Assembly: GCA_949130485.1 (NCBI GenBank)
Contig: OX422197.1
Location: 4,036,205-4,100,204, forward strand
DNA from: Agelas oroides
Taxonomy: Eukaryota; Porifera; Demospongiae; Agelasida; Agelasidae
Direction: 5' to 3'
DNA length: 64,000 nucleotides
The first letter of the stretch is position 1; every line of letters starts with the position of its first letter. The notes below the pieces were generated by a model. The model did not search any database. It worked only from the letters and a program-made list of their open reading frames with translations, and was not told where the DNA came from. Position numbers and translations under genes: made by a program. This document shows, piece after piece, positions 1-28,983 of the stretch.

Positions 1-3000
1 GGTTAGAACGGCTTTGTCAGGTCATTCCCGCACATACACACGCTTGCACGAGCTTCACATTGCCCCCAGAGTGGTGAAAATTGCTTTGTAGATGTTTCCT
101 AGCTCTTCAGCAGGCTTGCACGAGCTTCACAGGGCCTCCACAGAGGTGAAAACTGCTTTTTTGATATTTTCTGACACTTAAAGAGGCTTGGAGGAGCTTT
201 ACATGGGCTTCCATAGCACGTAAGCAGGCCTGCACGTGCTTCACAGTACCTCCTAGATGGTTAAAACGGCTTTGTCAGGTCTTTCCAGCCCATACACAGT
301 CTTGCACGAGCTTCACAGGGTCTCCACTGTGGTGAAAAGTGCTTTCTCGATCTTTCCTGACACTTCAACAAGCCACCACGTGCTTAACAGTACCTTCAAG
401 GCGGTTAAAACGGCTTTGTCAAGTCTTTCCGCACATACACAGGCTTGCACGGGCTTCACAGGACTTACACAGTGGCGAAAACTGCATACTAGATCTTTCC
501 TGACACTTCAACACGCCTCCATGTGCTTCACAGCACCTTCTCGGCGGTTAAAACGGCTTTGTCAGGTCATTCCCGCACATACACAGGCTTGCACGAGCTT
601 CAAAGGGACCCCAGAGTGGTGAAAAGTGCTTTGTAGATCAATCCTACCTCTTGAGCAGGCTTGCACGAGCTTCACAGGACCTCCACAGTGGTGAAAACTG
701 CCTTTTTGATATTTCCTGACACTTAAAGAGGCTTGGAAGAGGTTCACATGGGTGAAAACTGCTTTCTCGTTCTTCCCTGGCACATAAGCAGACCTCGTTC
801 TTCACAGTACCTCCTAGCTCGTTAAAACGGCTTTGTCAGGTCTTTCCAGCACATACACAGTCTTGCACGAGCTTCACAGGGCCTCCACAGAGGTGAAAAG
901 TGCTTTGTAGATCAATCCTACCTCTTGAGCAGGCTTGCACGAGCTTCACAGGACCTCCACAGTGGTGAAAACTGCCATTTTGATATTTCCTGACACTTAA
1001 AGAGGCTTGGAGGAGGTTCACATGGGTGAAAACTGCTTTCTCGATCTTCCTGGCACATAAGCAGGCCTCGTGCTTCACAGTACCTCCTAGCTGGTTAAAA
1101 CGGCTTTGTCAGGTCTTTCTAGCTCATACACAGTCTTGCACGACAGTAGTGAAAAGTGCTTTCTCGATCTTTCCTGACACTTCAACAAGCCACCACGTGC
1201 TTCGCAGCACCTTCACGGCGGTTAAAACGGCTTTGTCAGGTCTTCCCGCACATACACAGGCTTGCACGAGCTTCGCAGGACTTACACAGTGGTGAAAACT
1301 GCTTTCTAGATCTTTCCTGACACTTAAAGAGGGTTGCAGGAGCTTCACAGGACCTCTGCTGTGGTTGAAACGGCTTTGTCAAGTGATTCCTGCACATACA
1401 GGCTTGAACGAGATTCACAGGGCTTCCTCAGTGGTGAAAACTGCTTTTTAGATCTTTCCTGGCACTTAAACAAGCCTCCACGGGCTTCACAGCACATTCT
1501 TGGCAGTTAGAATGACTTTGTCAGGTCATTCCTGCATATACACAGGATGGCACTTAAACAAGCCTCCACGGGCTTCACAGCACATTCTTGGCAGTTAGAA
1601 TGACTTTGTCAGGTCATTCCTGCATATACACAGGATTACACGAGTTTCACACGACTTTGACAGTGGTGAAAACTACTTTCTCAATCTATCCTGGCACTTA
1701 AACAGGCCTGCACGAGCTTCATAGCTACTGCACAGCGTTTAAAACAGCATTTTCAGACTTCTACCGCACTTAAATAGGCTTGCACGAGCTTAACAGGACT
1801 TACACAGTGGCGAAAACTGCTTACTAGATCTTTCCTGACACTTCAACACGCCTCCACGTGCTTCACAGCGCCTTCTCGGCGGTTAAAACGGCTTTGTCAG
1901 GTCATTCCCGCACATACACAGGCTTGCACGAGCTTCACATTGCCCCGAGAGTGGTGAAAATTGCTTTGTAGATGTTTCCTAGCCCTTCAACAGGCTTGCA
2001 CGAGCTTCACAGGGCCTCCACAGAGGTGAAAACTGCTTTTTTGATATTTCCTGACACTTAAAGAGGCTTGGAGGAGCTTTACATGGGCTTCCATGGCACG
2101 TAAGCAGGCCTGCACGTGCTTCACAGAACCTCCTAGCTGGTTAAAACGGCTTTGTCTGGTCTTTCCAGCTCATACACAGTCTTGCACGAGCTTCACAGGG
2201 CCTCCACAGTGGTGAAAGGTGCTTACTAGATCTTTCCTGACACTTCAACACGCCTCCACGTGCTTCACAGCACCTTCTCGGCGGTTAAAACGGCTTTGTC
2301 AGGTCATTCCCGCACATACACAGGCTTGCACGAGTTTCACAGGGACCCCAGAGTGGTGAAAAGTGCTTTGTAGATCATTCCTACCTCTTGAGCAGGCTTG
2401 CACGAGCTTCACAGGGCCTCCACATTGGTGAAAACTGCCTTTTTGATATTTCCTGACAGTTAAAGAGGCTTGGAGGAGGTTCACATGGGTGAAAACTGCT
2501 TTCTCGATCTTCCCTGGCACATAAGAAGGCTTCGTGCTTCACAATACCTCCTAGCTGGTTAAAACGGCTTTGTCAGGTCTTTCCAGCTCATACACAGTCT
2601 TGCACGAGCTTCACAGGGCCTCCACAGTAGTGAAAAGTGCTTTCTCGATCTTTCCTGACACTTCAACAAGCCACCACGTGCTTCACAGCACCTTTACGGC
2701 GGTTAAAACGGCTTTGTCAGATCTTCCCGCACATACACAGGCTTGCTCGAGCTTCACAGGACTTACACAGTCGTGAAAACTGCCTTCTAGATCTTTCCTG
2801 ACACTTAAAGAAGGTTGCAGGAGCTTCACAGGACCTCTACTGTGGTTGAAACGGCTTTATCAGGTCATTCCTGCACATACAGGCTTGAACGAGATTCACA
2901 GGGCTTCCTCAGTGGTGAAAACTGCTTTTTAGATCTTTCCTGGCACTTAAACAAGCCTCCACGGGCTTCACAGCACATTCTTGGAAGTTAGAATGACTTT

Positions 3001-3249
3001 GTCAGGTCATTCCTGAATATACACAGGATTACACGAGTTTCACAGGACCTTGACAGTGGTGAAAAGTACTTTCTCAATCTATCCTGGAACTTAAACAGGC
3101 CTGCACGAGCTTCATAGCTACTGCACAGCGGTTAAAACAGCATTTTCAGACTTCTACCGCACTTAAATAGGCTTGCACGAGCTTCACAGGCCTTACACAG
3201 TGGTGAAAACTGCTTAACAGATCTTTCCTGACCCTTGCAGGAGCTTCAC
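1..3249 (+). repeat. Satellite array, ~144-bp monomer, + orientation (left arm, segment 1)
   Basis: Head-to-tail copies of a ~144-bp unit fill the segment. Each unit has two related ~72-bp halves. Half A starts GGTTAAAACGGCTTT and runs through GCACGAGCTTCACAGG. Half B starts GGTGAAAACTGCTTT and runs through CACGTGCTTCACAGC. Monomer variants are interspersed: one carries AATGACTTTGTCAGG, another CAGCATTTTCAGACTTC, and these recur together as a higher-order cassette. The segment starting at 1 is a close copy of the one starting at 1881 (offset about 1880 bp). No gene is visible. The short ORFs here are by-products of a repeat whose length is divisible by three. Confidence 0.95.
1461..1636 (+). 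repeat. Perfect 88-bp direct duplication inside the satellite
   Basis: Positions 1461-1548 and 1549-1636 are identical base for base. Both begin GGCACTTAAACAAGCC and end CACAGGAT. The 88-bp length is neither the 72-bp half-unit nor the 144-bp monomer, so this is an out-of-register local duplication. Perfect identity suggests it is recent. Confidence 0.93.
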
Positions 3250-3806
3250 GATCGAGAATGCAGGTTTCACCTATGTGAACCTCCTCCAAGCCTCTTTAAG
3301 TGTCAGGAAATATCAAAATGGCAGTTTTCACCACTGTGGAGGCCCTGTGAAGCTCGTGCAAGCCTGTTGATGTGCAGGAATCACCTGATAAAGCCGTTTC
3401 AACCACAGTAGAGGTCCTGTGAAGCTCTTGCAACCTTCTTTAAGTGTCAGGAAAGATCTAGAAAGCAGTTTTCACCACTGTGTATGTCCTGTGAAGCTCG
3501 TGCAAGCCTCTGTATGTGCGGGAAGACCTGACAAAGCCGTTTTAACCGCCGTGAAGGTGCTGTGAAGCACGTGGTGGCTTGTTGAAGTGTCAGGAAAGAT
3601 CGAGAAAGCACTTTTCACTACTGTGGAGGCCCTGTGAAGCTCGTGCAAGACTGTGTATGAGCTGGAAAGACCTGACAAAGCCGTTTTAACCAGCTAGGAG
3701 GTACTGTGAAGCACGAGGCCTGCTTATGTACCAGGGAAGATCGAGAAAGCAGTTTTCACCCATGTGAACCTCCTCCAAGCCTCTTTAAGTGTCAGGAAAT
3801 ATCAAA
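3250..3806 (-). repeat. Inverted satellite block 1
   Basis: Orientation flips at 3249/3250: the + strand motif GAGCTTCAC is followed directly by GATCGAGAATGC, which belongs to the - register. The block reads AAAGCCGTTTTAACC and flips back at 3806/3807, after AGGAAATATCAAA, to TGTCAAGTCTTTCC. Both junctions are abrupt, inside monomers, with no foreign sequence. The block is about four monomers long. Confidence 0.92.
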
Positions 3807-4550
3807 TGTCAAGTCTTTCCAGCTCATACACAGTCTTGCACGACAGTGGTGAGAAGTGCTTTCTCGATCTTTCCTGACACTTCAACAAGCCACCACGTGC
3901 TTTACAGCACTTTCACGGCGGTTAAAACGGCTTTGTCAGGTCTTTCCGCACATACACAGGCTTGCACGAGCTTTACAGGACTTACACAGTGGTGAAAACT
4001 GCTTTCTAGATCTTTCCTGACACTTAAAGAAGGTTGCAGGAGCTTCACAGGACCTCAACTGTGGTTGAAACGGCTTTATCAGGTCATTCCTCCACATACA
4101 GGCTTGAACGAGATTCACAGGGCTTCCTCAGATGTGAAAACTGCATTTTAGATCTTTCCTGTCACTTAAACAAGCCTCCACGGGCTTAACAGCACATTCT
4201 TGGTAGTTAGAATGACTTTGTCAGGTCATTCCTGCATATACACAGGATTACACGAGTTTCACAGGACCTTGACAGTGGTGAAAACTACTTTCTCAATCTA
4301 TCCTGGCACTTAAACAGGCCTGCACGAGCTTCATAGCTACTGCACAGCGGTTAAAACAGCATTTTCAGACTTCTACCGCACTTAAACAGGCTTGCACGAG
4401 CTTCACAGGACTTACACAATGGTGAAAACTGCTTAATAGATCTTTCTTGACCCTTAAAGAGGGTTGCAGGAGATTCACAGGACCTCTACTGTGGTTGAAA
4501 CGGCTTTGTCAGGTCTTTCCCGCACATCAACAGGCTTGCACGAGCTTCAC
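3250..4550. repeat. Large paralogous block, left copy (2812-bp offset)
   Basis: This stretch, including inverted block 1 and about 740 bp of the following + array, is repeated at about 6062-7362 with a constant 2812-bp offset. Shared peculiarities such as ATCGAGAATGC and the AATATCAAATGTCAAG junction show common descent. The copies diverge after the CCCGCACATCAACAGG motif. Confidence 0.85.
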
Positions 4551-6000
4551 AGGACTTACAAAGTGGCGAAAACTGCTTACTAGATCTTTCCTGACACTTC
4601 AACACGCCTCCACGTGCTTCACAGCACCTTCTCGGCGGTTAAAACGGCTTTGTCAAGCCATTCCCGCACATACACAGGCTTGCACGAGCTTCACAGGGAC
4701 CCCAGAGTGGTGAAAAGTGCTTTGTAGATCATTCCTACCACTTGAGCACGCTTGCACAAGCTTCACAGGGCCTCCACAGTGGTGAAAACTGCCTTTTTGA
4801 TATTTCCTGACACTTAAAGAGGCTTGGAGGAGGTTCACATGGGTGAAAACTGCTTTCTCGATCTTCCCTGGCACATAAGCAGGCCTCGTGCTTCACAGTA
4901 CCTGCTAGCTAGTTCAAACGGCTTTGTCAGGTCTTTCCAGGTCATACACTGTCTTGCACGAGCTTCACAGGACCTCCACAGTGGTGAAAAGTGCTTTCTC
5001 GATCTTTCCTGACACTTCAACAAGCCACCACGTGCTTCACAGCACCTTCACGGCGGTTAAAACGGCTTTGTCAAGTCTTCCCGCACATAACCAGGCTTGC
5101 ACGAGCTTCACAGGACTTACACAGTGGTGAAAACTGCTTTCTAGATCTTTCCTGACACTTAAAGAAGGTTGCAGGAGCTTCACAGGACCTCTACTGTGGT
5201 TGAAACGACTTTATCAGGTCATTCCTGCACATACAGGCTTGAACGAGATTCACAGGGCTTCCTCAGTGGTGAAAACTGCTTCTTAGATCTTTCCTGACAC
5301 TTCAACAAGCCACCACGTGTTTCACAGCACATTCACGGCGCTTAAAACGGCTTTGTCAGGTCTTCCCGCACATACACAGGCTTGCACGAGCATCACAGGA
5401 CTTACACAGTGGTGAAAACTGCTTTCTAGATCTTTCCTGACACTTAAAGAGGGTTGCAGGAGCTTCACAGGACCTCTACTGTGGTTGAAACGGCTTTATC
5501 AGGTCATTCCTGCACATACAGGCTTGAACGAGATTCACAGGGCTTCCTCAGTGGTGAAAACTGCTTTTTAGATCTTTCCTGGCACTTAAACAAGCCTCCT
5601 CGGGCTTAACAGCACATTCTTGGCAGTTAGAATGACTTTGTCAGGTCATTCCTGCATATACACAGGATTACACGAGTTTCACAGGACCTTGACAGTGGTG
5701 AAAACTACTTTCTCAATCTATCCTGGCACTTAAACAGGCCTGCACGAGCTTCATAGCTACTGCACAGCGGTTAAAACAGCATTTTCAGACTTCTACCGCA
5801 CTTAAACAGGCTTGCACGAGCTTCACAGGACTTACACAGTGGTGAAAACTGCTTAATAGATCTTTCCTGACCCTTAAAGAGGGTTGCAGGAGCTTCACAG
5901 GACCTCTACTGTGGTTGAAACGGCTTTGTCAGGTCTTTCCCGCACATCAACAGGCTTGCACGAGCTTCACAGGGCCTCCACAGTGGTGAAAACTGCCATT
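3807..6000 (+). repeat. Satellite array, + orientation (left arm, segment 2)
   Basis: This is the same 144-bp satellite in the + register between the two inverted blocks. It holds two copies of the CAGCATTTTCAGACTTC marker cassette (about 4357 and 5777). No gene or insertion is visible. Confidence 0.93.
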
Positions 6001-6618
6001 AAGCCGTTTTAACCAGCTAGGAGGTACTGTGAAGCACGAGGCCTGCTTATGTGCCAGGGAAGATCGAGAATGCAGGTTTCACCTATGTGAACCTCCTCCA
6101 AGCCTCTTTAAGTGTCAGGAAATATCAAAATGGCAGTTTTCACCACTGTGGAGGCCCTGTGAAGCTCGTGCAAGCCTGTTGATGTGCAGGAATCACCTGA
6201 TAAAGCCGTTTCAACCACAGTAGAGGTCCTGTGAAGCTCCTGCAACCTTCTTTAAGTATCAGGAAAGATCTAGAAAGCAGTTTTCACCACTGTGTAAGTC
6301 CTGTGAAGCTGGTGCAAGCCTCTGTATGTGCGGGAAGACCTGACAAAGCCGTTTTAACCGCCGTGAAGGTGCTGTGAAGCACGTGGTGGCTTGTTGAAGT
6401 GTCAGGAAAGATCGAGAAAGCACTTTTCACTACTGTGGAGGCCCTGTGAAGCTCGTGCAAGACTGTGTATGAGCTGGAAAGACCTGACAAAGCCGTTTTA
6501 ACCAGCTAGGAGGTACTGTGAAGCACGAGGCCTGCTTATGTACCAGGGAAGATCGAGAAAGCAGTTTTCACCCATGTGAACCTCCTCCAAGCCTCTTTAA
6601 GTGTCAGGAAATATCAAA
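6001..6618 (-). repeat. Inverted satellite block 2 (paralogue of block 1)
   Basis: The + register stops at 6000 (after AACTGCCATT) and the - register starts at 6001 with AAGCCGTTTTAACC. It flips back at 6618/6619 with exactly the junction seen at 3806/3807. From 6062 the block matches inverted block 1 at an offset of 2812 bp. Block 2 is about 60 bp longer at its left end, so the left junctions of the two blocks differ while the right junctions are the same. Confidence 0.92.
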
Positions 6619-7362
6619 TGTCAAGTCTTTCCAGCTCATACACAGTCTTGCACGACAGTGGTGAAAAGTGCTTTCTCGATCTTTCCTGACACTTCAACAA
6701 GCCACCACGTGTTTCACAGCACATTCACGGCGCTTAAAACGGCTTTGTCAGGTCTTTCCGCACATACACAGGCTTGCACGAGCTTCACAGGACTTACACA
6801 GTGGTGAAAACTGCTTTCTAGATCTTTCCTGACACTTAAAGAAGGTTGCAGGAGCTTCACAGGACCTCAACTGTGGTTGAAACGGCTTTATCAGCTCATT
6901 CCTGCACATACCGGCTTGAACGAGATTCACAGGGCTTCCTCAGTTGCGAAAACAGCTTTTTCGATTTTTCCTGTCACTTAAACAAGCCTCCACGGGCTTA
7001 ACAGCACATTCTTGGCAGTTAGAATGACTTTGTCAGGTCATTCCTGCATATACACAGGATTACACGAGTTTCACAGGACCTTGACAGTGGTGAAAACTAC
7101 TTTCTCAATCTATCCTGGCACTTAAACAGGCCTGCACGAGCTTCATAGCTACAGCACAGCGGTTAAAACAGCATTTTCAGACTTCTACCGCACTTAAATA
7201 GGCTAGCGCGAGCTTCACAGGACTTACACAGTGGTGAAAACTGCTTAATAGATCTTCCCTGACCCTTAAAGAGGGTTGCAGGTGCTTCACAGGACCTCTA
7301 CTGTGGTTGAAACGGCTTTGTCAGGTCTTTCCCGCACATCAACAGGCTTGCACGAGCTTCAC
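6062..7362. repeat. Large paralogous block, right copy (2812-bp offset)
   Basis: This is the second copy of the 3250-4550 block. It contains inverted block 2 from 6062 onward, its right junction and the following + array. Small substitutions separate the copies, so the duplication is not brand new. Confidence 0.85.
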
Positions 7363-10300
7363 AGGGCCTCCACAGTGGTGAAAACTGCCATTTTGATATT
7401 TCCTGACACTTAAAGAGGCTTGGAGGAGGTTCACATGGGTGAAAACTGCTTTCTCGATCTTCCCTGGCACATAAGCAGGCCTCGTGCTTCACAGTACCTC
7501 CTAGCTGGTTAAAACGGCTTTGTCAGGTCTTTCCAGCTCATACACAGTCTTGCACGAGCTTCACAGGGCCTCCACAGTAGTGAAAAGTGCTTTCTCGATC
7601 TTTCCTGACACTTCAACAAGCCACCACGTGCTTCACAGCACCTTCACGGCGCTTAAAACGGCTTTGTCAGGTCTTCCCGCACATACACAGGCTTGCACGA
7701 GCTTCACAGGACTTACACAGTGGTGAAAACTGCTTTCTAGATCTTTCCTGACACTTAAAGAGGGTTGCAGGAGCTTCACAGGACCTCTACTGTGGTTGAA
7801 ACGGCTTTATCAGGTCATTCCTGCACATACAGGCTTGAACGAGATTCACAGGGCTTCCTCAGTGGTGAAAACTGCTTTTTAGATCTTTCCTGGCACTTAA
7901 ACAAGCCTCAACGGGCTTAACAGCACATTCTTGGCAGTTAGAATGACTTTGTCAGGTCATTCCTGCATATACACAGGATTACACGAGTTTCACAGGACCT
8001 TGACAGTGGTGAAAACTACTTTCTCAATCTATCCTGGCACTTAAACAGGCCTGCACGAGCTTCATAGCTACTGCACAGCGGTTAAAACAGCATTTTCAGA
8101 CTTCTACCGCACTTAAATAGGCTTGCACGAGCTTCACAGGACTTACACAGTGGCGAAAACTGCTTACTAGATCTTTCCTGAAAATTCAACACGCCTCCAC
8201 GTGCTTCACAGCACCATTTCGGCGGTTAAAACGGCTTTGTCAGGTCATTCCCGCACATACACAGGCTTGCACGAGCCTCACAGGGCCCCCAGAGTGGTGA
8301 AAATTGCTTTGTAGATGTTTCCTAGCTCTTCAGCACGCTTGCACGAGCTTTACAGGGCCTCCACAGAGGTGAAAACTGCTTTTTTGATATTTCCTGACAC
8401 TTAAAGAGGCTTGGAGGAGCTTTACATGGGCTTCCATGGCACGTAAGCAGGCCTGCACGTGCTTCACAGCACCTTCATGGCGGTTAAAACGGCTTTGTCA
8501 AGTCTTCCCGCACATACACAGGGTTGCACGAGCTTCACAGGAGTTACACAGTGGTGATAATTGCTTTCTAGATCTTTCCTGACACTTAAAGAGGGTTGCA
8601 GGAGCTTCACAGGGACCCCAGAGTGGTGAAAAGTGCTTTGTAGATCATTCCTACCTCTTGAGCAGGCTTGCACGAGCTTCACAGGGCCTCCACATTGGTG
8701 AAAACTGCCATTTTGATATTTCCTGACACTTAAAGAGGCTTGGAGGAGGTTCACATGGGTGAAAACTGGTTTCTCGATCTTCCCTGGCACATAAGCAGGC
8801 CTCGTGCTTCACAGTACCTCCTAGCTGGTTAAAACGGCTTTGTCAGGTCTTTCCAGCTCATGCACAGTCTTGCACGAGCTTCACAGGGCCTCCACAGTGG
8901 TGAAAAGTGCTTTCTCGATCTTTCCTGACACTTCAACAAGCCACCACGTGCTTCACAGCACCTTCACGGCGGTTAAAACGGCTTTGTCAAGTCTTCCCGC
9001 ACATACACAGGCTTCCACGAGCTTCACAGGACTTACACAGTGGCGAAAACTGCTTACTAGATCTTTCCTGACACTTCAACACGCCTCCACCTGCTTCACA
9101 GTACCTTCTCGGCGGTTAAAACGGCTTTGTCAGGTCATTCCCGCACATATCCAGGCTTGCACGAGCTTCACAGGGACCCCAGAATGGTGAAAAGTGCTTT
9201 GTAGATCATTCCTACCTCTTGAGCAGGCTTGCACTAGCTTCACAGGGCCTCCAGAGTGGTGAAAACTGCCTTTTTGATATTTCCTGACACTTAAAGAGGC
9301 TTGGAGGAGGTTCACATGGGTGAAAACTGCTTTCTCGATCTTCCCTGGCACAAAAGCAAGCCTCGTGCTTCACAGTACCTCCTAGCTGGTTAAAACGGCT
9401 TTGTCAGGTCTTTCCAGCTCATACACAGTCTTGCACGAGCTTCACAGGACCTCCACAGTGGTGAAAAGTGCTTTCTCGATCTTTCCTGACACTTCAACAA
9501 GCCACCACGTGCTTCACAGCACCTTCACGGCGGTTAAAACGGCTTTGTCAGGTCTTTCCGCACATACACAGGCTTGCACGAGCTTCACAGGACTTACACA
9601 GTGGTGAAAACTGCTTTCTAGATCTTTCCTGACACTTAAAGAAGGTTGCAGGAGCTTCACAGGACCTCTACTGTGGTTGAAACGGCTTTGTCTGGTCATT
9701 CCTGCACATACAGGCTTGAACGAGATTCACAGGGCTTCCTCAGTGGTGAAAACTGCTTTTTAGATCTTTCCTGGCACTTAAACAAGCCTCCACGGGCTTC
9801 ACAGCACATTCTTGGCAGTTAGAATGACTTTGTCAGGTCATTCCTGCACATACACAGGATTACACGAGTTTCACAGGACCTTGACAGTGGTGAAAACTAC
9901 TTTCTCAATCTATCCTGGAACTTAAACAGGCCTGCACGAGCTTCATAGCTACTGCACAGCGGTTAAAACAGCATTTTCAGACTTCTACCGCACTTAAACA
10001 GGCTTGCACGAGCTTCACAGGGCCTCCACAGTGGTGAAAACTGCCTTTTTGATATTTCCTGACACTTAAAGAGGCTTGGAGGAGGTTCACATGGGTGAAA
10101 ACTGCTTTCTCGATCTTCCCTGGCACAAAAGCAAGCCTCGTGCTTCACAGTACCTCCTAGCTGGTTAAAACGGCTTTGTCAGGTCTTTCCATCTCACACA
10201 CAGTCTTGCACGAGCTTCACAGGACCTCCACAGTGGTGAAAAGTGCTTTCTCGATCTTTCCTGACACTTCAACAAGCCACCACGTGCTTCACAGCACCTT

Positions 10301-11960
10301 CACGGCGCTTAAAACGGCTTTGTCAGGTCTTTCCGCACATACACAGGCTTGCACGAGCTTCACAGGACTTACACAGTGGTGAAAACTGCTTTCTAGATCT
10401 TTCCTGACACTTAAAGAAGGTTGCAGGAGCTTCACAGGACCTCTACTGTGGTTGAAACGACTTTGTCAGGTCATTCCTGCACATACAGGCTTGAACGAGA
10501 TTCACAGGGCTTCCTCAGTGGTGAAAACTGCTTTTTAGATCTTTCCTGGCACTTAAACAAGCCTCCACGGGCTTCACAGCACATTCTTGGCAGTTAGAAT
10601 GACTTTGTCAGGTCATTCCTGCATATACACAGGATTACACGAGTTTCACAGGACCTTGACAGTGGTGAAAACTACTTTCTCAATCTATCCTGGCACTTAA
10701 ACAGGCCTACACGAGCTTCATAGCTACTGCACAGCGGTTAAAACAGCATTTTCAGACTTCTACCGCACTTAAACAGGCTTGCACGAGCTTCACAGGACTT
10801 ACACAGTGGTGAAAACTGCTTAATAGATCTTTCCTGACCCTTAAAGAGGGTTGCAGGAGCTTCACAGGACCTCTACTGTGGTTGAAACGGCTTTGTCAGG
10901 TCTTTCCCGCACATCAACAGGCTTGCACGAGCTTCACAGGGCCTCCACAGTGGTGAAAACGGCCATTTTGATATTTCCTGACACTTAAAGAGGCTTGGAG
11001 GAGGTTCACATCGGTGAAAACTGCTTTCTCGATCTTCCCTGGCACATAAGCAGGCCTCGTGCTTCACAGTACCTCCTAGCTGGTTAAAACGGCTTTGTCA
11101 GGTCTTTCCAGCTCATACACAGTCTTGCACGAGCTTCACAGGGCCTCCACAGTAGTGAAAAGTGCTTTCTCGATCTTTCCTGACACTTCAACAAGCCACC
11201 ACGTGATTCACAGCACCTTCACGGCGGTTAAAACGGCTTTGTCAGGTCTTCCCGCACATACACAGGCTTGCACGAGCTTCACAGGACTTACACAGTGGTG
11301 AAAACTGCTTTCTAGATCTTTCCTGACACTTAAAGAGGGTTGCAGGAGCTTCACAGGACCTCTACTGTGGTTGAAACGTCTTTGTCAGGTCATTCCTGCA
11401 CATACAGGCTTGAACGAGATTCACAGGGCTTCCTCAGTGTCTTTCCTGGCACTTAAAGAAGCCTCCACGGGCTTCACAGCACATTCTTGGCAGTTAGAAT
11501 GACTTTGTCAGGTCATTCCTGCATATACACAGGATTACACGAGTTTCACACGACCTTGACAGTGGTGAAAACTACTTTCTCAATCTATCCTGGCACTTAA
11601 ACAGGCCTGCACGAGCTTCATAGCTACTGCACAGCGGTTAAAACAGCATTTTCAGACTTCTACCGCACTTAAACAGGCTTTCACGAGCTTCACAGGACTT
11701 ACACAGTGGCGAAAACTGCTTACTAGATCTTTCCTGACACTTCAACACGCCCCTCCACGTGCTTCACAGCACCTTATCGGCGGTTAAAACGGCTTTGTCG
11801 GGTCATTCCCGCACATACACAGGCTTGCACGAGCTTCACAGGGCCCCCAGAGTGGTGTAAATTGCTTTGTAGATCATTCGTAGCTCTTCAGCAGGCTTGT
11901 ACGAGCTTCACAGGGCCTCCACAGTGGTTAAAACTGCCTTTTTGATATTTCCTGATACTT
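6619..11960 (+). repeat. Satellite array, + orientation (left arm, segment 3)
   Basis: Continuous + register satellite with five marker cassettes. A sub-block of about 890 bp at about 6975-7865 recurs at about 10550-11440 (offset 3575 bp). The second copy then loses part of a monomer, with CTTCCTCAGTG running straight into TCTTTCCTGG near 11438. No gene is visible. Confidence 0.92.
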
Positions 11961-14473
11961 AAAGATGCTTAGGGGAGCTTCACATGGGTGAAAACTGCTT
12001 TCTCGATCTTTCTTGGCACATAAGCAGGGCTGCACGTGTTTCACAGTGCCTCCTAGCTGGTTAAAACGACTTTGTCAGGTCTTTCCAGCTCATGCACAGT
12101 CTTGCACGAGCTTCACAGGGTCTCTACGGTGGTGAAAAGTGCTTTCTCGATCTTTCCTGGCACTTAAACAGGATTGCACGTGCCTCACAGCACCTCATCA
12201 GCGGTTAAAACGGTTTTATTAGGTCTTTCCCGCACATTCACAGGTTTGAACGAGCTTCATAGTGCTGAAAACTGCTTTATAGATCTTTCCTGACACGTGA
12301 ACAAGCTTCCACGTGGTCCACAGCACCTTCTCGGCGATTAAAACGGCTTTGTCAGATCAATCCAGCAGATGCACAGGCACATACACAGGTTTGTAGGAGC
12401 TTCAAAGGACTTTCACAGTGGTGAAAACTGCTTTTGAATATTTCCTGGCACTTAATCAGGCCAGCACGTGTATCACAGCACTTGTCAGGTCATTCCAGCA
12501 CATACACAAGCTTGCAGGAGCTTCAAAGGACCTTCACAGTGGTGAAAACTGCTTTCTCAATCATTCCTGGCACTTAAACCGGCTTGAACGTGCTTCACAG
12601 CAAAACATCTTCCAGCCTCACAGGACATTCACAGTGGTGAAAACTGCTTTCTCAATCTTTCCTGGTACTTAAACAGGCCTGCACGTACTTCACCAGCACA
12701 TCACCGCCGTTTAAAACAGCTTCATCAGGTCTTTGTCGCTCATACACAGGCTTGCACGAGCTTCACAGGACTTCCACAGTGGCGAAAACTGCTTTTTAGA
12801 TCTTTCCTGGCAATTAAAGAGGATTGCACATGCTTCACAGCACCTCATCGGCAGTTAAAACGGCTTTATCAGGTTTTTCTCGCCCATACACATGCTTGCA
12901 CGAGCTTCACAGGAATTTCACTGTGCTGAAAACTACTTTTTAGATCTTTCCTGACACTTCTACAAGCCTCCACGTGCTTCACAACACCTCGGCGGTTTAA
13001 ACGGATTTGTGAGGTCATTTCACTACATACACAGGCTTGTACGAGCTTTACAGGACCTTCACAGTGGTGAAAACTGCTTTCTCAATCTTTCCTGGTACTT
13101 AAACAGACCTGCACGGGTTTCACAGCACCGTATCGGCTGTTAAAACGGTTTTATCAGGTCTTTCAAGCACATACACAGGCTTGCACGAGCTTCACAGGGC
13201 CTCCTCAGTAGTGGAAAGTGCTTTCTCCATCTTTCCTGGCACTTAAAGACGATTGCACGTGCTTCACAGCAGGTTAAAACGGCATTATCAGGTCTTTCCC
13301 GCACATACACAGGCTTGCACGATCTTCACAGCATTTCCACAGTGATGAAAACTGCTTTTTAGATCTTTCCTGACACTTCAACAAGCCTCCACGTGCTTCG
13401 CAGCACCTTCTCGGCGGTTAAAACGGCTTTATCAGGTCATTTCAGCACACATACACAGGCTTGCACGAGCTTCACAGGACTTCCACAGTGGTGAAAACTG
13501 CTTTCTCAATCTTTCCTGGCACTTAAACAGGCTTGCACGTGCTTCACAGCACCGCATCGGCGGTTGAAACGGCTTTTATCATGTCTTTCCCGCACATACA
13601 CTGGCTTGTACGTGCTTCGCAGGGCCCCCACAGTGGTGAAAAGTGCTTGCTCGATCCTTCATAGCACTTAAACGTGATTGCACGTGCTTCACAGCACCTC
13701 ATCGGCTGTTGAAACGGCTTTTATCAGGTCTTTCCCGCACATACACAGGCTTGCACGAGATTCGCAGGGCCCCCACAGTGGTGAAAACTGCTTTCTCGAT
13801 CTTTCATAGCACTTAAACAGGTGCTTCACAGCACCTCATCTGCGGTTAAAACGGTTTTATCAAGTCTTTCCCGCACATACACACGATTGCACGAGCTTCA
13901 CTGGGCCTCCACTGAGGTGAAAAGTGCTTTCTCGATCTTTCCTTGCACATAAACAGGCCTGCACGTGCTTCTCAGCACCTCATCGGCGGTTAAAATGGCT
14001 TTATCAGGTCTTTCCCGCTCATAAACAGGCTTGCATGAGCTTCACAGGAATTCCACAGCGCTGAAAACTGCTTTTTAGGTCTTTACTGACACTTCAACAT
14101 GACTCCACGTGCTTCACAGTATCTCCTCGGCGGTTAAAACGGCTTTGTCAGGTCATTCCAGCACACATACACAGGCTTGCACGAGCTTCTCAGGGCCTCC
14201 ACAGCGGTTAAAAGTACTTTCTCGATCTCTCCTGGCACTTGAACAGGATTGCACGTGCTTCACAGCACCTCATCGGCGGTTAAAACGGCTTTATCAGCTC
14301 TTTCCTGCACATGAACAGGCTAGCACCAGCTTCGCTGGGACCCACAGTAGTGAAAACTGCTTTCTCGATCTTTCATAGCACTTAAACAGTATTGCACTTG
14401 TTTCCCAGCACCTCATCGGAGGTTAAAACGGCTTTATCAGGGCTTTCTTTCTCATACACAGGCTTGCACGAGC

Positions 14474-15174
14474 TTCACAGGACTTCCACAGTGGTAAAAA
14501 TTGCTTTTTAGATCTCTCTTGACACTTCAAGAAGCCTCCACGTGCTTCACACCACCTTCTCGGCTAGGTCAGGTTATTCCATCCCATACACAGGCTTGCA
14601 CCAGCTTCACAGGACTTCCACAGTGGCGAAAACTGCTTTCACAATCGTTCCTGGTACTTAGACCTGCACGTGCTTCACAGCTCCGCATCGGCGGATGAAA
14701 CGGCTTTAACAGGTCTTTTCCGCACATACACAGGCATGCACGAGCTTCGTAGGGCCCCAACAGTGGTAAAAACTGCTTTCTCGATCTTTCATAGCACTTA
14801 AACAGGATTGCACGTGCTTCACAGAACCTCATTGGCGGTTAAAACGGCTTTATCAAGTCTTTCCCGCGCATACACAGGCTTGCACGAGATTCACAGGGCC
14901 TCCACAGAGGTTAAAAGTGCTTTCTCGATATTTCCTGGCACAAAACAGGATTGAAGGTGCTTCACAGGACTTCCACAGTGGTAAAAATTGCTTTTTAGAT
15001 CTCTCTTGACACTTCAAGAAGCCTCCACGTGCTTCACAGCACCTTCTCGGCTAGGTCAGGTTATTCCATCCCATACACAGGCTTGCACCAGCTTCACAGG
15101 ACTTCCACAGTGGCGAAAACTGCTTTCACAATCGTTCCTGGTACTTAGACCTGCACATGCTTCACAGCTCCGCT
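14474..15174 (+). repeat. 214-bp block duplicated 487 bp apart
   Basis: About 14474-14687 and 14961-15174 are nearly identical. Both carry the same odd deletion, in which CTTCTCGGCTAGGTCAGG has lost the usual GGTTAAAACGG core. Both also share TCACAATCGTTCCTGG and a missing stretch before GACCTGCACRTGC. The shared defects show one copy was made from the other. Confidence 0.88.
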
Positions 15175-15623
15175 TCGACGGTTAAAACGGCTTTATCAGC
15201 TCTTTCCAGCACATACACAGGCTTGCACGTGCTTCACATGGCTCACACAGTGCTGAAAACTGCTTTTTAAATCCTTATTGACATTTCAACAAGCCTCAAC
15301 GTGCTTCACAGCACCTTCTCGGCGGTTAAAACGGCTTTGTCAGGTCACTCCAGCACATACACAGGCTTGCATTAGCTTCACAGGACCTTCACAGTGGTGA
15401 AAACTGCTTTCTCAATCATTCCTGATACGTAAACAGGATTGCACGTGCTTCACAGCACCTCACCGGCTGTTAAAACAGCTTTATCAGCTTTTCCCGCACA
15501 TACACAGCCTTGTACGAGCTTTTCAAGATTTTCACATTGGTGAAAACCACATCTTTCCTGGCACTTAATCAGGCCTGCACGTGCTTCACAGAACCTCATC
15601 GGCGGTTAAAACGGCTTTATCAG

Positions 15624-15632
15624 GTCTTTCCC
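15624..15632 (+). repeat. Target-site duplication, left (GTCTTTCCC)
   Basis: GTCTTTCCC sits directly left of the transposon and again directly right of it at 17406-17414. The sequence is the normal satellite half-A motif, and joining the flanks across the element restores an ordinary monomer. This fixes both ends of the insertion. Confidence 0.9.
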
Positions 15633-15696
15633 TAGCCTCGCACCCAGGCCGTTAATTAGGAAAAACGGCCTGGCAACTTACCCTGGTTCAAACTGT
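15633..15696 (+). repeat. Left TIR of the 1773-bp transposon, with internal hairpin
   Basis: The 64 bp are the reverse complement of 17342-17405 except at four positions. Within the TIR, CCAGGCCGTT (15644-15653) and AACGGCCTGG (15664-15673) form a perfect 10-bp stem with a 10-nt loop. Each end can therefore fold alone. Confidence 0.92.
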
Positions 15697-16122
15697 ATAC
15701 GGATATGACGACAAAAAGATTACAGCTGCACCCATACAAGCCATGAATATTGGATAATGCATGCGATATTTAATCGTAGCCACGTGACTGTTCGTAATGT
15801 GCAAGCGCGTTGATGGTGCCAGTAGACTCGCTACAGGCTTATATTGGATGGTTACTGTCTTACTTGTCATCTGTAGACGAACCGCTTGCAGTAGACTCGC
15901 TCTCGCTCACCGATGTCGATGTGCCCGACTGACAGTAAGTACTAACTAGTACCTGACACTGCTACTCTCGAACAGGTCCTTTTTTGTAAAGGATCCGTTT
16001 TGTCCCCAGGTACTGTAGTTGTTACACACAAGTCAGCGGAAGGAGTTCGAACAAAAGCGTTGTTCCAAGCGCTAGCGGTACCACGGGACGGATATAATAT
16101 AGATAATAAAAAAATTTTAAAA
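15697..16122. other. Unique 5' region of the transposon, no clear gene
   Basis: This stretch is non-satellite. An in-frame ATG at 16000 would add 41 residues to the ORF below, but that extension looks like ordinary non-coding translation. A pyrimidine-rich run ending in CCCCAG near 16007 could be a splice acceptor. An AT-rich run (16091-16122) lies just before the preferred ATG. I see no sure promoter. Confidence 0.6.
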
Positions 16123-16587
16123 ATGGCTGACACATGTGGCAAAATTGCTGTCCTCGTTGTTGATGGGAATTACTCTGCCCTTCGTGCGCTAGGTTTCCCT
16201 CTTCCCGCCCTTGCTGCTATGCAAGAGGCTGGAGTTCTACTTGGTCAGGCCTGTTGGGATATGAAGCAGTCAACTTCTGGGATATCTGTGAGCTTTTTCT
16301 GGCCGCAGACTGATTCACGTCAGACTCAGCTGAGGAGCACCCAGAAGATCACTAAATCTAAGAAGAGAAGGCGTAGGCGTAAGAGTAAGGGTAAGACTAA
16401 TGACCTCACTAAGAATAAAGACTGTGGTGGAGATTGTGACCAACTGCAACCTCAAGCCCAGGATATTCCAATTGATGCCCACTCTATCCCTGAATCAGTT
16501 AAGTCCCCTACTCCTTCTGTCACACTGGCTGATACTGATCTAGTTGTTGTGAACGATCACATTGACATGAATGTTGATGATGAGTGA
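16123..16587 (+). CDS. Small basic protein of unknown function carried by the transposon
   Basis: I do not recognise a named family. From the ATG at 16123 the product is 154 residues. I prefer this start over the in-frame ATG at 16000 because its context is AAAATGG, with A at -3 and G at +4. Residues 1-61 look like a compact domain with a hydrophobic strand (AVLVVDGNYSALRALGF) and a C-terminal SVSFFWP. Residues 80-91 are a strongly basic KKR5-K-type run, a likely nuclear localisation or nucleic-acid-binding patch. The tail (about 110-154) is acidic, Ser/Pro-rich and probably disordered. The layout recalls small ORF1-like proteins of animal mobile elements, but this is only an impression. The reading frame stops at 16585-16587, where a second frame opens. 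It could also be an exon of a captured host gene. Confidence 0.55.
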   Translation: MADTCGKIAVLVVDGNYSALRALGFPLPALAAMQEAGVLLGQACWDMKQSTSGISVSFFWPQTDSRQTQLRSTQKITKSKKRRRRRKSKGKTNDLTKNKDCGGDCDQLQPQAQDIPIDAHSIPESVKSPTPSVTLADTDLVVVNDHIDMNVDDE

Positions 16588-16840
16588 CATTCCTGGAGTT
16601 TGTGTGGAATCTGGAGAGACTTCATCTTGGACACCTATCAAGATCTCAAGGAATCGAGTGAGAGCAGCAGATAGTGACACTAGTGATGATAATGTTTCTT
16701 TGGATTACTGCCTGTCGCTAAACTATCAACCAGTACATGGAGTACCTGGATTTGAGGTTGAAACTGCTGACGATATCTTTTGGGCACCGATTGCTCATCG
16801 GACTCGGGCTCGTGCGCGGTTGAAGTTTACGGACACTTAG
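16571..16840 (+). CDS. Overlapping ORF, likely frameshifted C-terminal continuation
   Basis: An 89-codon ORF starts 17 nt before the end of the previous ORF, in the +1 frame. A stop at 16568-16570 closes this frame just upstream, so the open part begins exactly where the first frame ends. The product is acidic and Ser/Asp-rich in its middle and ends with an Arg-rich APIAHRTRARARLKF segment. Its composition continues the tail of the first ORF. The simplest reading is one ancestral gene with a single frame-changing indel in 16571-16587. Programmed frameshifting, or two overlapping genes, cannot be excluded. No ribosomal slippery heptamer is obvious. Confidence 0.45.
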   Translation: MLMMSDIPGVCVESGETSSWTPIKISRNRVRAADSDTSDDNVSLDYCLSLNYQPVHGVPGFEVETADDIFWAPIAHRTRARARLKFTDT

Positions 16841-16883
16841 TGCTGATCATTAGTGTGTAATTGGATGTTGCAGTGTTGTTTGT

Positions 16884-16905
16884 CCCCCCCCCCCCCCCCC
16901 CCCCC
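16884..16905 (+). repeat. Homopolymer tract, 22 C
   Basis: Twenty-two consecutive C residues are followed by TT and six more C residues. The tract lies 43 bp after the stop of the second ORF. Homopolymers of this length are slippage-prone, and their length in an assembly is uncertain. Confidence 0.95.
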
Positions 16906-16941
16906 TTCCCCCATTGCACCTACTGTGGTGTGTTCGAATAA

Positions 16942-17233
16942 TAGTCTCGCGTAGCCAGACTCTCACACGAAAAACGGGAGAGAGTCTGGTGACTCTCGCA
17001 TATTGAGTTGGTGTTGCGCTGTCAGCAAGTCAGTAGGTAATTAAGTAGGTGCGAACAAGTGTGCATTTGACAGGGAAGTCATGAAAGTGACATTGAAGCC
17101 AGACTCTCAAACGGTAACTCACTTATGGTCAATTATCGCCCCCAGAAATTCCTGGGCCTATTAGCACCAACTCAATATGCAAGAGTCACCAGACTCCCGT
17201 TTTTTCGTGTGAGAGTCTGGCTACGCGAGACTA
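16942..17233. mobile_element. Nested 292-bp MITE with long hairpin TIRs
   Basis: The element begins TAGTCTCGCGTAGCC and ends GGCTACGCGAGACTA. The ends pair as inverted repeats for about 70 bp, through ATATTGAGTTGGTG, with a small indel. Each TIR contains a further palindrome: CCAGACTCTC at 16955-16964 pairs with GAGAGTCTGG at 16980-16989, and a shorter version lies near 17189-17220. No convincing target duplication remains; a TA at each end is the only candidate. The interior (about 17015-17160) has no ORF. The ends resemble those of the host transposon (TAGYCTCG plus a subterminal CCAG hairpin). Confidence 0.85.
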
Positions 17234-17341
17234 GGTATAACACTGTGATGCATTTATGACGCAATTAAAATTCTCTACAACTGTCACGTGAACCGCTCTG
17301 AAATCTGATTGGTACTGCCAACCCCAGTGCAGCGGAAGTCA
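17234..17341. other. 3' unique region of the transposon
   Basis: Non-satellite sequence between the nested MITE and the right TIR. No ORF or recognised motif. Confidence 0.6.
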
Positions 17342-17405
17342 ACAGTTTGAACTCGGATAAGTTGCCAGGCCGTTTTTCCTAATTAACGGCCTGGGTACGA
17401 GGCTA
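17342..17405 (-). repeat. Right TIR of the 1773-bp transposon
   Basis: Inverted copy of 15633-15696. It holds the mirror hairpin (stem arms at 17365-17374 and 17385-17394) and ends CGAGGCTA. It is followed at once by the second GTCTTTCCC. Confidence 0.92.
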
Positions 17406-17500
17406 GTCTTTCCCAAACAAAGACAGGCTTGCACGAGTTTCACAGAGTCTCCACGGTGGTGAAAGGTGCTTTCTCGATCTTTCCCAGCACTAAAACAGGC
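17406..17500 (+). repeat. Remainder of the interrupted + monomer with right target duplication
   Basis: GTCTTTCCC (17406-17414) is the right target duplication. The following ACAGGCTTGCACGAG, GGTGAAAGGTGCTTTC and CACTAAAACAGG continue the monomer cut by the transposon, still in + orientation. The orientation switch follows at about 17501. Confidence 0.88.
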
Positions 17501-28300: not shown

Positions 28301-28983
28301 TGCAAACAACTAATAATACTCACCGTGAGATAGTCGCCGCAGTACAGACCCGAATAATCTTCGGCACAGGAGCGCCTACCAGCGAAGAGCAAGCCTCCCA
28401 GACGTTCCACCTAGACGACACGATAGCGAGCCAGAATCCCGTACGTTAACCGTTCGCCCATCCCCCTAGTTATTATAAGTTAATACGATAACTCCACCCA
28501 TTGAGCCCCTCCCCCAATTTGATTAGTAATTTGAATATTTATAGCACTGTAAATGCCCATAGCACTATGTGCCAACCAAAAGCTGGGCTCCTCAAAGCAA
28601 ACCTTAGGCGGGGAGTGGTCCCGCCCTTTCTGTAGTAGGCTACGGGTCGGGAGTTCAAAAGGACCGAAACCCGTGGTCATGCGAGGACCTGAAAGGCTAC
28701 TCCCCTGAAGACCAGTATGTTTTTGAGCATTTCTCCCAAAAACAGTAACTAACCGCCCCATCCATTTGAGCCATAAATGCCCCACCCATTTAAGTCATAA
28801 ATGCCCCACACATTTAAGCCATAAATGCTCCACCCATTTAAGCCATAAAATGCCCCATCCCTTTAAGCCATAAATACCCCATCCCCATCTCCGTTTATGT
28901 TTTAACTTCACACTTTATGTATGTGTGAAATTTTGAACATCGATGTGCCAGCGGTGTTGGTGCTCCCCCTTGTACTCGACACA
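28301..28983. other. 683-bp unique (non-satellite) block of unknown origin
   Basis: The satellite stops after CGCCGATGAG at 28300 and resumes at 28984 with CACTTTTCACC. About 52 bp of the monomer are missing between these points, so the block replaced satellite rather than simply splitting it. No inverted repeats or target duplication are seen at the edges. Contents: a mixed-sequence left part, a hairpin (CGGGTCGGG with CCGAAACCCG, about 28645-28675), a 24-bp tandem repeat, and an AT-rich right edge. A 101-codon - strand ORF (28480-28785) runs partly through the tandem repeat and is not convincing as a gene. Confidence 0.8.
28756..28888 (+). repeat. 24-bp minisatellite, about 5.5 copies
   Basis: Units read about CCCCACCCATTTAAGC followed by CATAAATG. 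They start at 28756, 28780, 28804, 28828 (25 bp, one extra A) and 28853, with a partial copy from 28877. Copies differ at one to three positions. The repeat is unrelated to the 144-bp satellite. Confidence 0.93.

Follow-up and report, generated by a model that had tools for sequence, protein, structure and literature searches.

Transposons of the hAT superfamily leave 8 bp target-site duplications. Elements of the IS200/IS605 group and Helitrons possess subterminal hairpins and move as single strands; they have no terminal inverted repeats (TIRs) and produce no 9 bp duplication. Helitron palindromes are mentioned in the excerpted part of PMC3422177. According to excerpts of PMC5225508, Mutator-like elements (MULEs) generate duplications of 8–10 bp, and 2 of 14 Aedes MULE families have TIRs shorter than 60 bp. 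The same excerpts describe Muta1 of Aedes aegypti, an active animal MULE with an imperfect palindrome in its TIR and duplications of 8–9 bp.

The locus considered here lies at positions 15633–17405 of the window, i.e. the whole 64,000-nucleotide stretch of DNA that was analysed. It is probably best explained as a non-autonomous transposon (MITE A) mobilised in trans, with a MULE as the likeliest source of the transposase, into which a second MITE (B) and a retroelement fragment were nested later.

Insertion site and copies of MITE A

The initial annotation proposed a transposon inserted into a satellite at this position, and its ends (TAGCCTCG/CGAGGCTA), TIRs and flanks were recovered as described. 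The ends lie immediately within the flanking GTCTTTCCC at 15624–15632 and 17406–17414, and the inverted repeat of the window copy spans 65 nt (15632–15696/17342–17406, 94 % complementary).

15624–15632, + strand: left 9 bp target-site duplication of MITE A, GTCTTTCCC, in the 72/144 bp satellite; exact match with 17406–17414
15633–16099, + strand: left part of MITE A (consensus positions 1–469), from the 94–97 % matches listed for other scored copies and from consensus alignment
15633–15696, + strand: left TIR of A, 64 bp
17234–17405, + strand: right part of MITE A, from matches to other copies and consensus alignment
17342–17405, − strand: right TIR of A, 64 bp
17406–17414, + strand: right 9 bp target-site duplication of MITE A, GTCTTTCCC

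Because the satellite target contains units resembling GTCTTTCCC, a 9 bp repeat alone is weak evidence at this site; the copies of A elsewhere with 9 bp duplications settle the window duplication as genuine. The 259 Mb assembly (141 contigs) was searched, and 40 of 673 first-look candidates for A were scored. A matches these 40 places, window copy included, and nearly all of the others match as two blocks, query 1–467 and about 1602/1606–1773. A is thus an element of about 635 bp that lacks the central part of the window copy; the size given by 15633–17405 has to be revised, since the window copy is enlarged by nested insertions. The 38 other full copies measure 601–637 bp, with a consensus of 635 bp.

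Alignment of other copies, the check proposed in the initial annotation, showed boundaries and duplication length to be consistent across many of them. In the 39 copies of A with both ends (window copy included; the 40th locus is without both ends), the duplication is an exact 9 bp in 32, an exact 10 bp in 2, has one mismatch in 4 and is absent from 1; two pairs of loci, L033/L035 and L036/L037, are duplicates with shared flanks. MITE B was likewise scored at 40 places, window copy included; of 29 further copies examined, 27 are flanked by exact 9 bp duplications, 1 by a duplication with one mismatch and 1 by one with three. Identity of the A copies to their consensus is 95.2–99.8 %, exceeding 99 % in 24 of 39 and reaching at least 99.5 % in 20 of 39, which indicates that A moved recently. 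Short, non-coding, bounded by TIRs and present as many near-identical copies with a duplication of fixed length, A is classed on these sequence features as a young MITE family. Two minus-strand ORFs of at least 60 aa outside the nested insert have no Pfam match. L061/L096 were considered as a longer, possibly autonomous A and rejected as a truncated copy.

The 72/144 bp satellite occupies nearly the whole window (1–15631 and 17502–64000). Its orientation switches near 3293, 3843, 6107, 6655 and about 17500, the last lying about 95 bp to the right of the A insertion, and a 24 bp tandem repeat (GCCCCACCCATTTAAGCCATAAAT, 5.2 copies) breaks it at 28755–28881. The flanks of the L036/L037 copies resemble the satellite of the window at 76–82 %; A has therefore inserted into such satellite more than once.

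Source of the transposase

MITE A would be a cut-and-paste element mobilised by a transposase encoded elsewhere, which would cut its target with a stagger of 9 bp, occasionally 10 bp; in the window, A landed in satellite. Elements from all loci were pooled and repeats removed, keeping those whose duplication had one mismatch or none at 8–11 bp: 35 copies of A, 26 of B and 14 other elements. Among these 75, the duplication was an exact 9 bp in 63, near 9 in 7, an exact 10 bp in 3 and near 10 in 2, with none best at 8 or 11; some of the near 10 bp matches may be chance. The mostly 9 bp duplications of A, B and the pooled elements fall within the MULE range of 8–11 bp. Their TIRs, at 64 bp in A and 69–72 bp in B, compare with a typical length above 100 bp for MULEs (PMC5225508, in excerpt), and those of A are short by that standard. 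Together, the 9 bp duplications and 64–72 bp TIRs may point to Mutator-like elements, and Muta1 adds the example of an animal MULE with a palindrome in its TIR; the MULE superfamily is the likeliest candidate source of the transposase. The high identity of the A copies suggests that the gene is functional now or was very recently, and so should be findable. Among open stretches of at least 150 aa in the fetched loci L001–L072 and L096 (in L001–L072 the first 120 residues, by eye), there was no evident transposase.

Superfamilies with 8 bp duplications fit a 9/10 bp pattern worse than MULEs do. An origin of the transposase in another superfamily with 8–9 bp duplications (Merlin, P-like), or in an undescribed one, is nevertheless a possibility of some substance, if improbable on balance: the TAGYCTCG ends matched no MULE terminus in the excerpted literature compared, yet the strict 9 bp and occasional 10 bp duplication is closer to MULEs than to the 8 bp superfamilies. 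Membership of hAT was rejected on the 9 bp duplications and the lack of any best match at 8 bp in the pooled set of 75, of which A and B make up 61, and membership of IS200/IS605 or Helitrons on the presence of TIRs and 9 bp duplications.

Hairpins in the TIRs of A and B

Each TIR of the window copy contains the perfect 10 bp stem reported in the initial annotation, and MITE B has a stem of its own, different in sequence from that of A.

15644–15673, + strand: hairpin in the left TIR of A, CCAGGCCGTT, loop of 10, AACGGCCTGG; stem perfect in 36 of 39 copies
17365–17394, + strand: hairpin in the right TIR of A, CCAGGCCGTT/AACGGCCTGG, perfect 10 bp stem with a 10-base loop; stem perfect in 24 of 39 copies
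16942–17233, + strand: MITE B, 292 bp, TAGTCTCGCG...CGCGAGACTA; arms 16942–17013 and 17165–17233
16955–16989, + strand: hairpin in the left TIR of B, CCAGACTCTC, loop of 15, GAGAGTCTGG; stem P=0.002

Conservation of the hairpin arms between copies, which the initial annotation had set as a test, is seen on the left side of A and only in part on the right, and both TIRs have a perfect stem in 23 of 39 copies. In B, the stem is perfect in 28 of 29 left and 24 of 29 right TIRs; the right TIR of the window copy retains an 8 bp stem. Mean minor-allele frequencies in the left TIR of A are 0.003 and 0.005 for the stem arms and 0.005 for the remainder. In the right TIR, they are 0.035 and 0.005 for the arms and 0.020 for the remainder, with 0.022 in the middle of the element, so that the outer right arm varies more than the middle. 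Within A, the stem shows no better conservation than the remainder of the TIR. One base that mismatches the stem is common to 11 of 39 right TIRs, and these copies are 99.2–99.7 % identical to the consensus; an imperfect stem therefore did not block amplification.

End architecture shared with other elements

A hairpin within the TIR had been put forward as an unusual mark of this element. That description is incomplete: many other elements, a large group, share such a hairpin. The ends of A and B are alike, consisting of TAGYCTCG, a short spacer and then CCAGRC, which opens the hairpin. When all fetched sequence was searched for the motif, many further families came to light. The end motif TAGYCTCRTNCCCAGRC is recurrently accompanied by the inverted partner GYCTGG. 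The pattern TAG[CT]CT[CT]N3-6CCAG[AG]C marks 25 ends in 60 kb elsewhere in the genome (six arbitrarily placed 10 kb stretches), against a mean of 0.07 expected from 30 Markov simulations. Taken literally, this is about one end per 2.4 kb; the sample is small and the figure rough. The 64 kb window has only four matches to the TAGYCTY-CCAGRC signature, the ends of the A/B nest, and the satellite seems poor in elements with such ends.

Stems vary by family (CCAGGCCGTT, CCAGACTCTC, CCAGACCC, CCAGGCCCC, CCAGGCTCTCCCC, CCAGGCCTTCC) while complementarity persists. Per-cluster shuffles gave P<0.01 for the stem in 14 of 50 end clusters. A perfect stem of at least 6 bp is present in the representative of 19 of 50 clusters and absent from 31; when all members are considered, at least one has such a stem in 22 clusters and none in 28. 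The script's test classed 3 of the 19 stem-bearing clusters as whole mini-elements, inspection by eye added a few, and one (L034) is a decayed copy of A. A first control for stem enrichment (stem of at least 6 bp in 13 of 27 end clusters versus 35 of 179 controls, P=0.0025) was contaminated by hairpins read from the other strand, and a second (12 of 26 versus 11 of 94, P=0.0003) still included three A/B ends; L034 was omitted from the 12 of 26 and kept as a separate cluster among the 50. The per-cluster shuffles are therefore preferred. The terminal Y and inner R are complementary in 45 of 51 clusters (29 C-G and 16 T-A, with 2 C-A and 4 T-G; Fisher P=8e-8), a count that took clusters with C/T and A/G (6 of 57 had other letters) and in which clusters are not fully independent families. 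Stems may differ even between the ends of one element: L098:6086–6724, with the exact duplication ACACTATCA, has a 13 bp stem at one end (CCAGGCTCTCCCC/GGGGAGAGCCTGG) and a different 8 bp stem at the other (CCAGGCCC/GGGCCTGG). Elements of 43–103 bp with exact or one-mismatch duplications have ends mostly without a hairpin of their own; a hairpin is thus not strictly needed.

The hairpin may be a palindromic double binding site, in which each TIR would present two opposed half-sites, CCAGRC/GYCTGG, to a shared transposase family, and drift between families would alter half-site and inner stem without loss of palindromy. Opposed half-sites would explain both the joint change of the half-site letters and the tolerance of imperfect or missing stems, and on this comparison of ends we infer a putative double site.

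It is unlikely, though less so than the readings that follow, that the hairpins are by-products without a role, left by palindromic mini-elements of about 50–100 bp (two collapsed ends) or by quasi-palindrome correction. Near-palindromic mini-elements do recur, as at L098 (−) 5786, which is almost the hairpin of A itself, L102:3697–3790 and L098:9319–9371, but hairpins stand at both ends of A, B, L031:1071–1377, L098:6086–6724 and L100:8759–9212, and the sequence after those 3′ arms is not the outer GAGRCTA but mostly CTGG(T/C)(A/G)A(A/C), the exception being AATA at the right end of L098:6086–6724. It is doubtful that these elements form an undescribed transposon group, perhaps a new superfamily, whose ends are marked by a palindrome conserved in complementarity and not in sequence and whose transposase reads the paired structure or opposed half-sites; covariation of the terminal GYCT, inner CCAGRC and 3′ arm GYCTGG would be part of that reading. 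If true, the group would be a highly successful one, given the end density in the 60 kb sample.

Lower still is the probability of a structural role, in which the hairpin, as a cruciform or single-stranded, would be read by its shape by a transposase or in replication-coupled transposition. Stems change in sequence from family to family, and even from one end of an element to the other, yet stay complementary, and the TIRs of A, predicted as single-stranded DNA, fold better than most shuffles (left, z-score −2.4 with 4 of 200 shuffles folding as well; right, −3.9 with 0 of 200). However, many families are without a perfect stem (no member in the 28 clusters given above), a recent A subfamily amplified with a mismatched stem, fixed 9 bp duplications suit ordinary double-strand cut-and-paste, and opposed protein half-sites account for the palindrome equally well. 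Recognition of structure is possible yet not needed where the hairpin is taken as a double binding site. If the pattern holds genome-wide, the ends form a natural series of covarying mutants that could reveal the geometry of transposase binding, and such elements could explain many of the short repeats in a probably early-branching animal.

Palindromic mini-elements of about 50–100 bp, with little beyond their two ends, were seen at L098 (−) 5786, L098 9319–9371, L102 3697–3790 and L068 2041; some of them have duplications of 9 or 10 bp, with one mismatch at L098:9319 and, by eye, a length of 10 bp at L068:2041. On a contig filed as a sponge-symbiont bacterium, a 133 bp stretch (L073 1711–1843) has TAGCCTCGTCCCCAGGCC at both ends and flanks without a clean 9 bp duplication, and is probably host contamination in that MAG. 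A longer end signature has three exact matches in bacterial and archaeal assemblies: a poecilosclerid-sponge symbiont MAG, Nitrosopumilus MAG isolate HM_N, which we take to be sponge-derived, and a groundwater Bacteroidetes MAG, where the match looks like chance. A demosponge is accordingly the likely host of these elements. Exact searches of IMG/VR with two signature patterns returned nothing, the window has no Rfam match at gathering thresholds, and six end strings do not occur in the literature searched. Literature on sponge MITEs, palindromic or hairpin TIRs, and MULE or foldback hairpins, judged mostly from listings, contained nothing recognised as this group.

Nested insertions in the window copy

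Foreign DNA is nested in the window copy of A, as an insert of 1134 bp (16100–17233) that is missing from the 38 other full copies.

16091–16099, + strand: left copy of the nested 9 bp target duplication, GATATAATA, where the nearest uninterrupted copies of A have GGTATAATA
16100–16941, + strand: fragment of a truncated, non-LTR-like retroelement; its 5′ edge is uncertain in exact position, and its 3′ end enters an AATAAT-type tail
16123–16587, + strand: first ORF of the retroelement fragment, 154 aa when counted from its ATG and 195 aa when counted from a TTG further upstream (16000); it includes a stretch rich in Lys/Arg and matches no Pfam family
16571–16840, + strand: overlapping ORF of 89 aa, in the retroelement fragment; no Pfam match
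17234–17242, + strand: right copy of the nested 9 bp target duplication, GGTATAACA

The segment 16100–16941 has 13 partial matches besides its own, several of which stop at one common 3′ point, and its relatives at L065 and L067 continue into long (ATA)n tails; the common 3′ point and the tails identify it as a truncated non-LTR-like retroelement. It contains a run of 22 C at 16884–16905. The immediate flanks of B in the window do not match one another directly. GATATAATA, to the left of the whole insert, and GGTATAACA, to the right of B, each differ by one base from the GGTATAATA of the closest uninterrupted copies. From this it appears that B, a MITE of the same group, inserted into A with its own 9 bp duplication, and that the truncated fragment with its ORFs would have entered later at the left edge of B.

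The protein that the element was initially thought to carry does lie between the TIRs by position; as cargo it does not stand, its ORFs being in the nested insert. The four ORFs of the window element have no Pfam match at E≤1, and with both plus-strand ORFs in a low-copy, 5′-truncated retroelement, their assignment as transposase or cargo was rejected. Membership of Pack-MULEs, which carry a host gene fragment along between their TIRs, was likewise rejected, the ORF region being part of a later insertion and lacking in the 38 other full copies of A. It is thus very improbable that the locus is one intact transposon with its own gene or captured cargo, even with ORFs sitting between the TIRs, when the insert is missing from the other full copies examined (40 of 673 candidates scored), is flanked by a diverged 9 bp duplication and contains both another MITE and the 3′ end of a retroelement whose copies elsewhere include two with (ATA)n tails. 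The nested copy serves as a warning that ORFs between TIRs are not necessarily cargo.

Comparison with known systems

The subterminal hairpins of A and B are a likeness to the ends of IS200/IS605 elements and Helitrons. Foldback/Tm1 elements of root-knot nematodes are similar in their 9 bp duplications, structured TIRs and combination of MITE-like and transposase-coding members, whereas the TIRs of Tm1 are largely arrays of 13–15 bp motifs in tandem, and its hairpin, a histone-hairpin motif, lies between the TIRs and is no palindrome within each of them (PMC3169594, in excerpt). Foldback elements are marked by very long TIRs composed of internal tandem repeats. Membership of Foldback was rejected, as the TIRs here are only 64–72 bp long and no tandem array is listed within 15633–17405.

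Animal MULEs (Phantom/Muta) share with A and B duplications of 8–10 bp, TIRs of tens to hundreds of bp and non-autonomous derivatives (PMC6446971, in excerpt). Like A and B, Muta1 has a palindromic motif inside the TIR. Unlike theirs, the Muta1 palindrome is terminal and imperfect, 10 bp in all with its two middle bases unpaired, and is accompanied by 9 copies of a 12 bp tandem repeat (PMC5225508, in excerpt); neither A nor B has tandem repeats in a subterminal position. Compared with MULEs, the palindrome of the present elements starts 11–13 bp inside the end, forms a perfect stem of 7–13 bp in the clearest families, and is family-specific.
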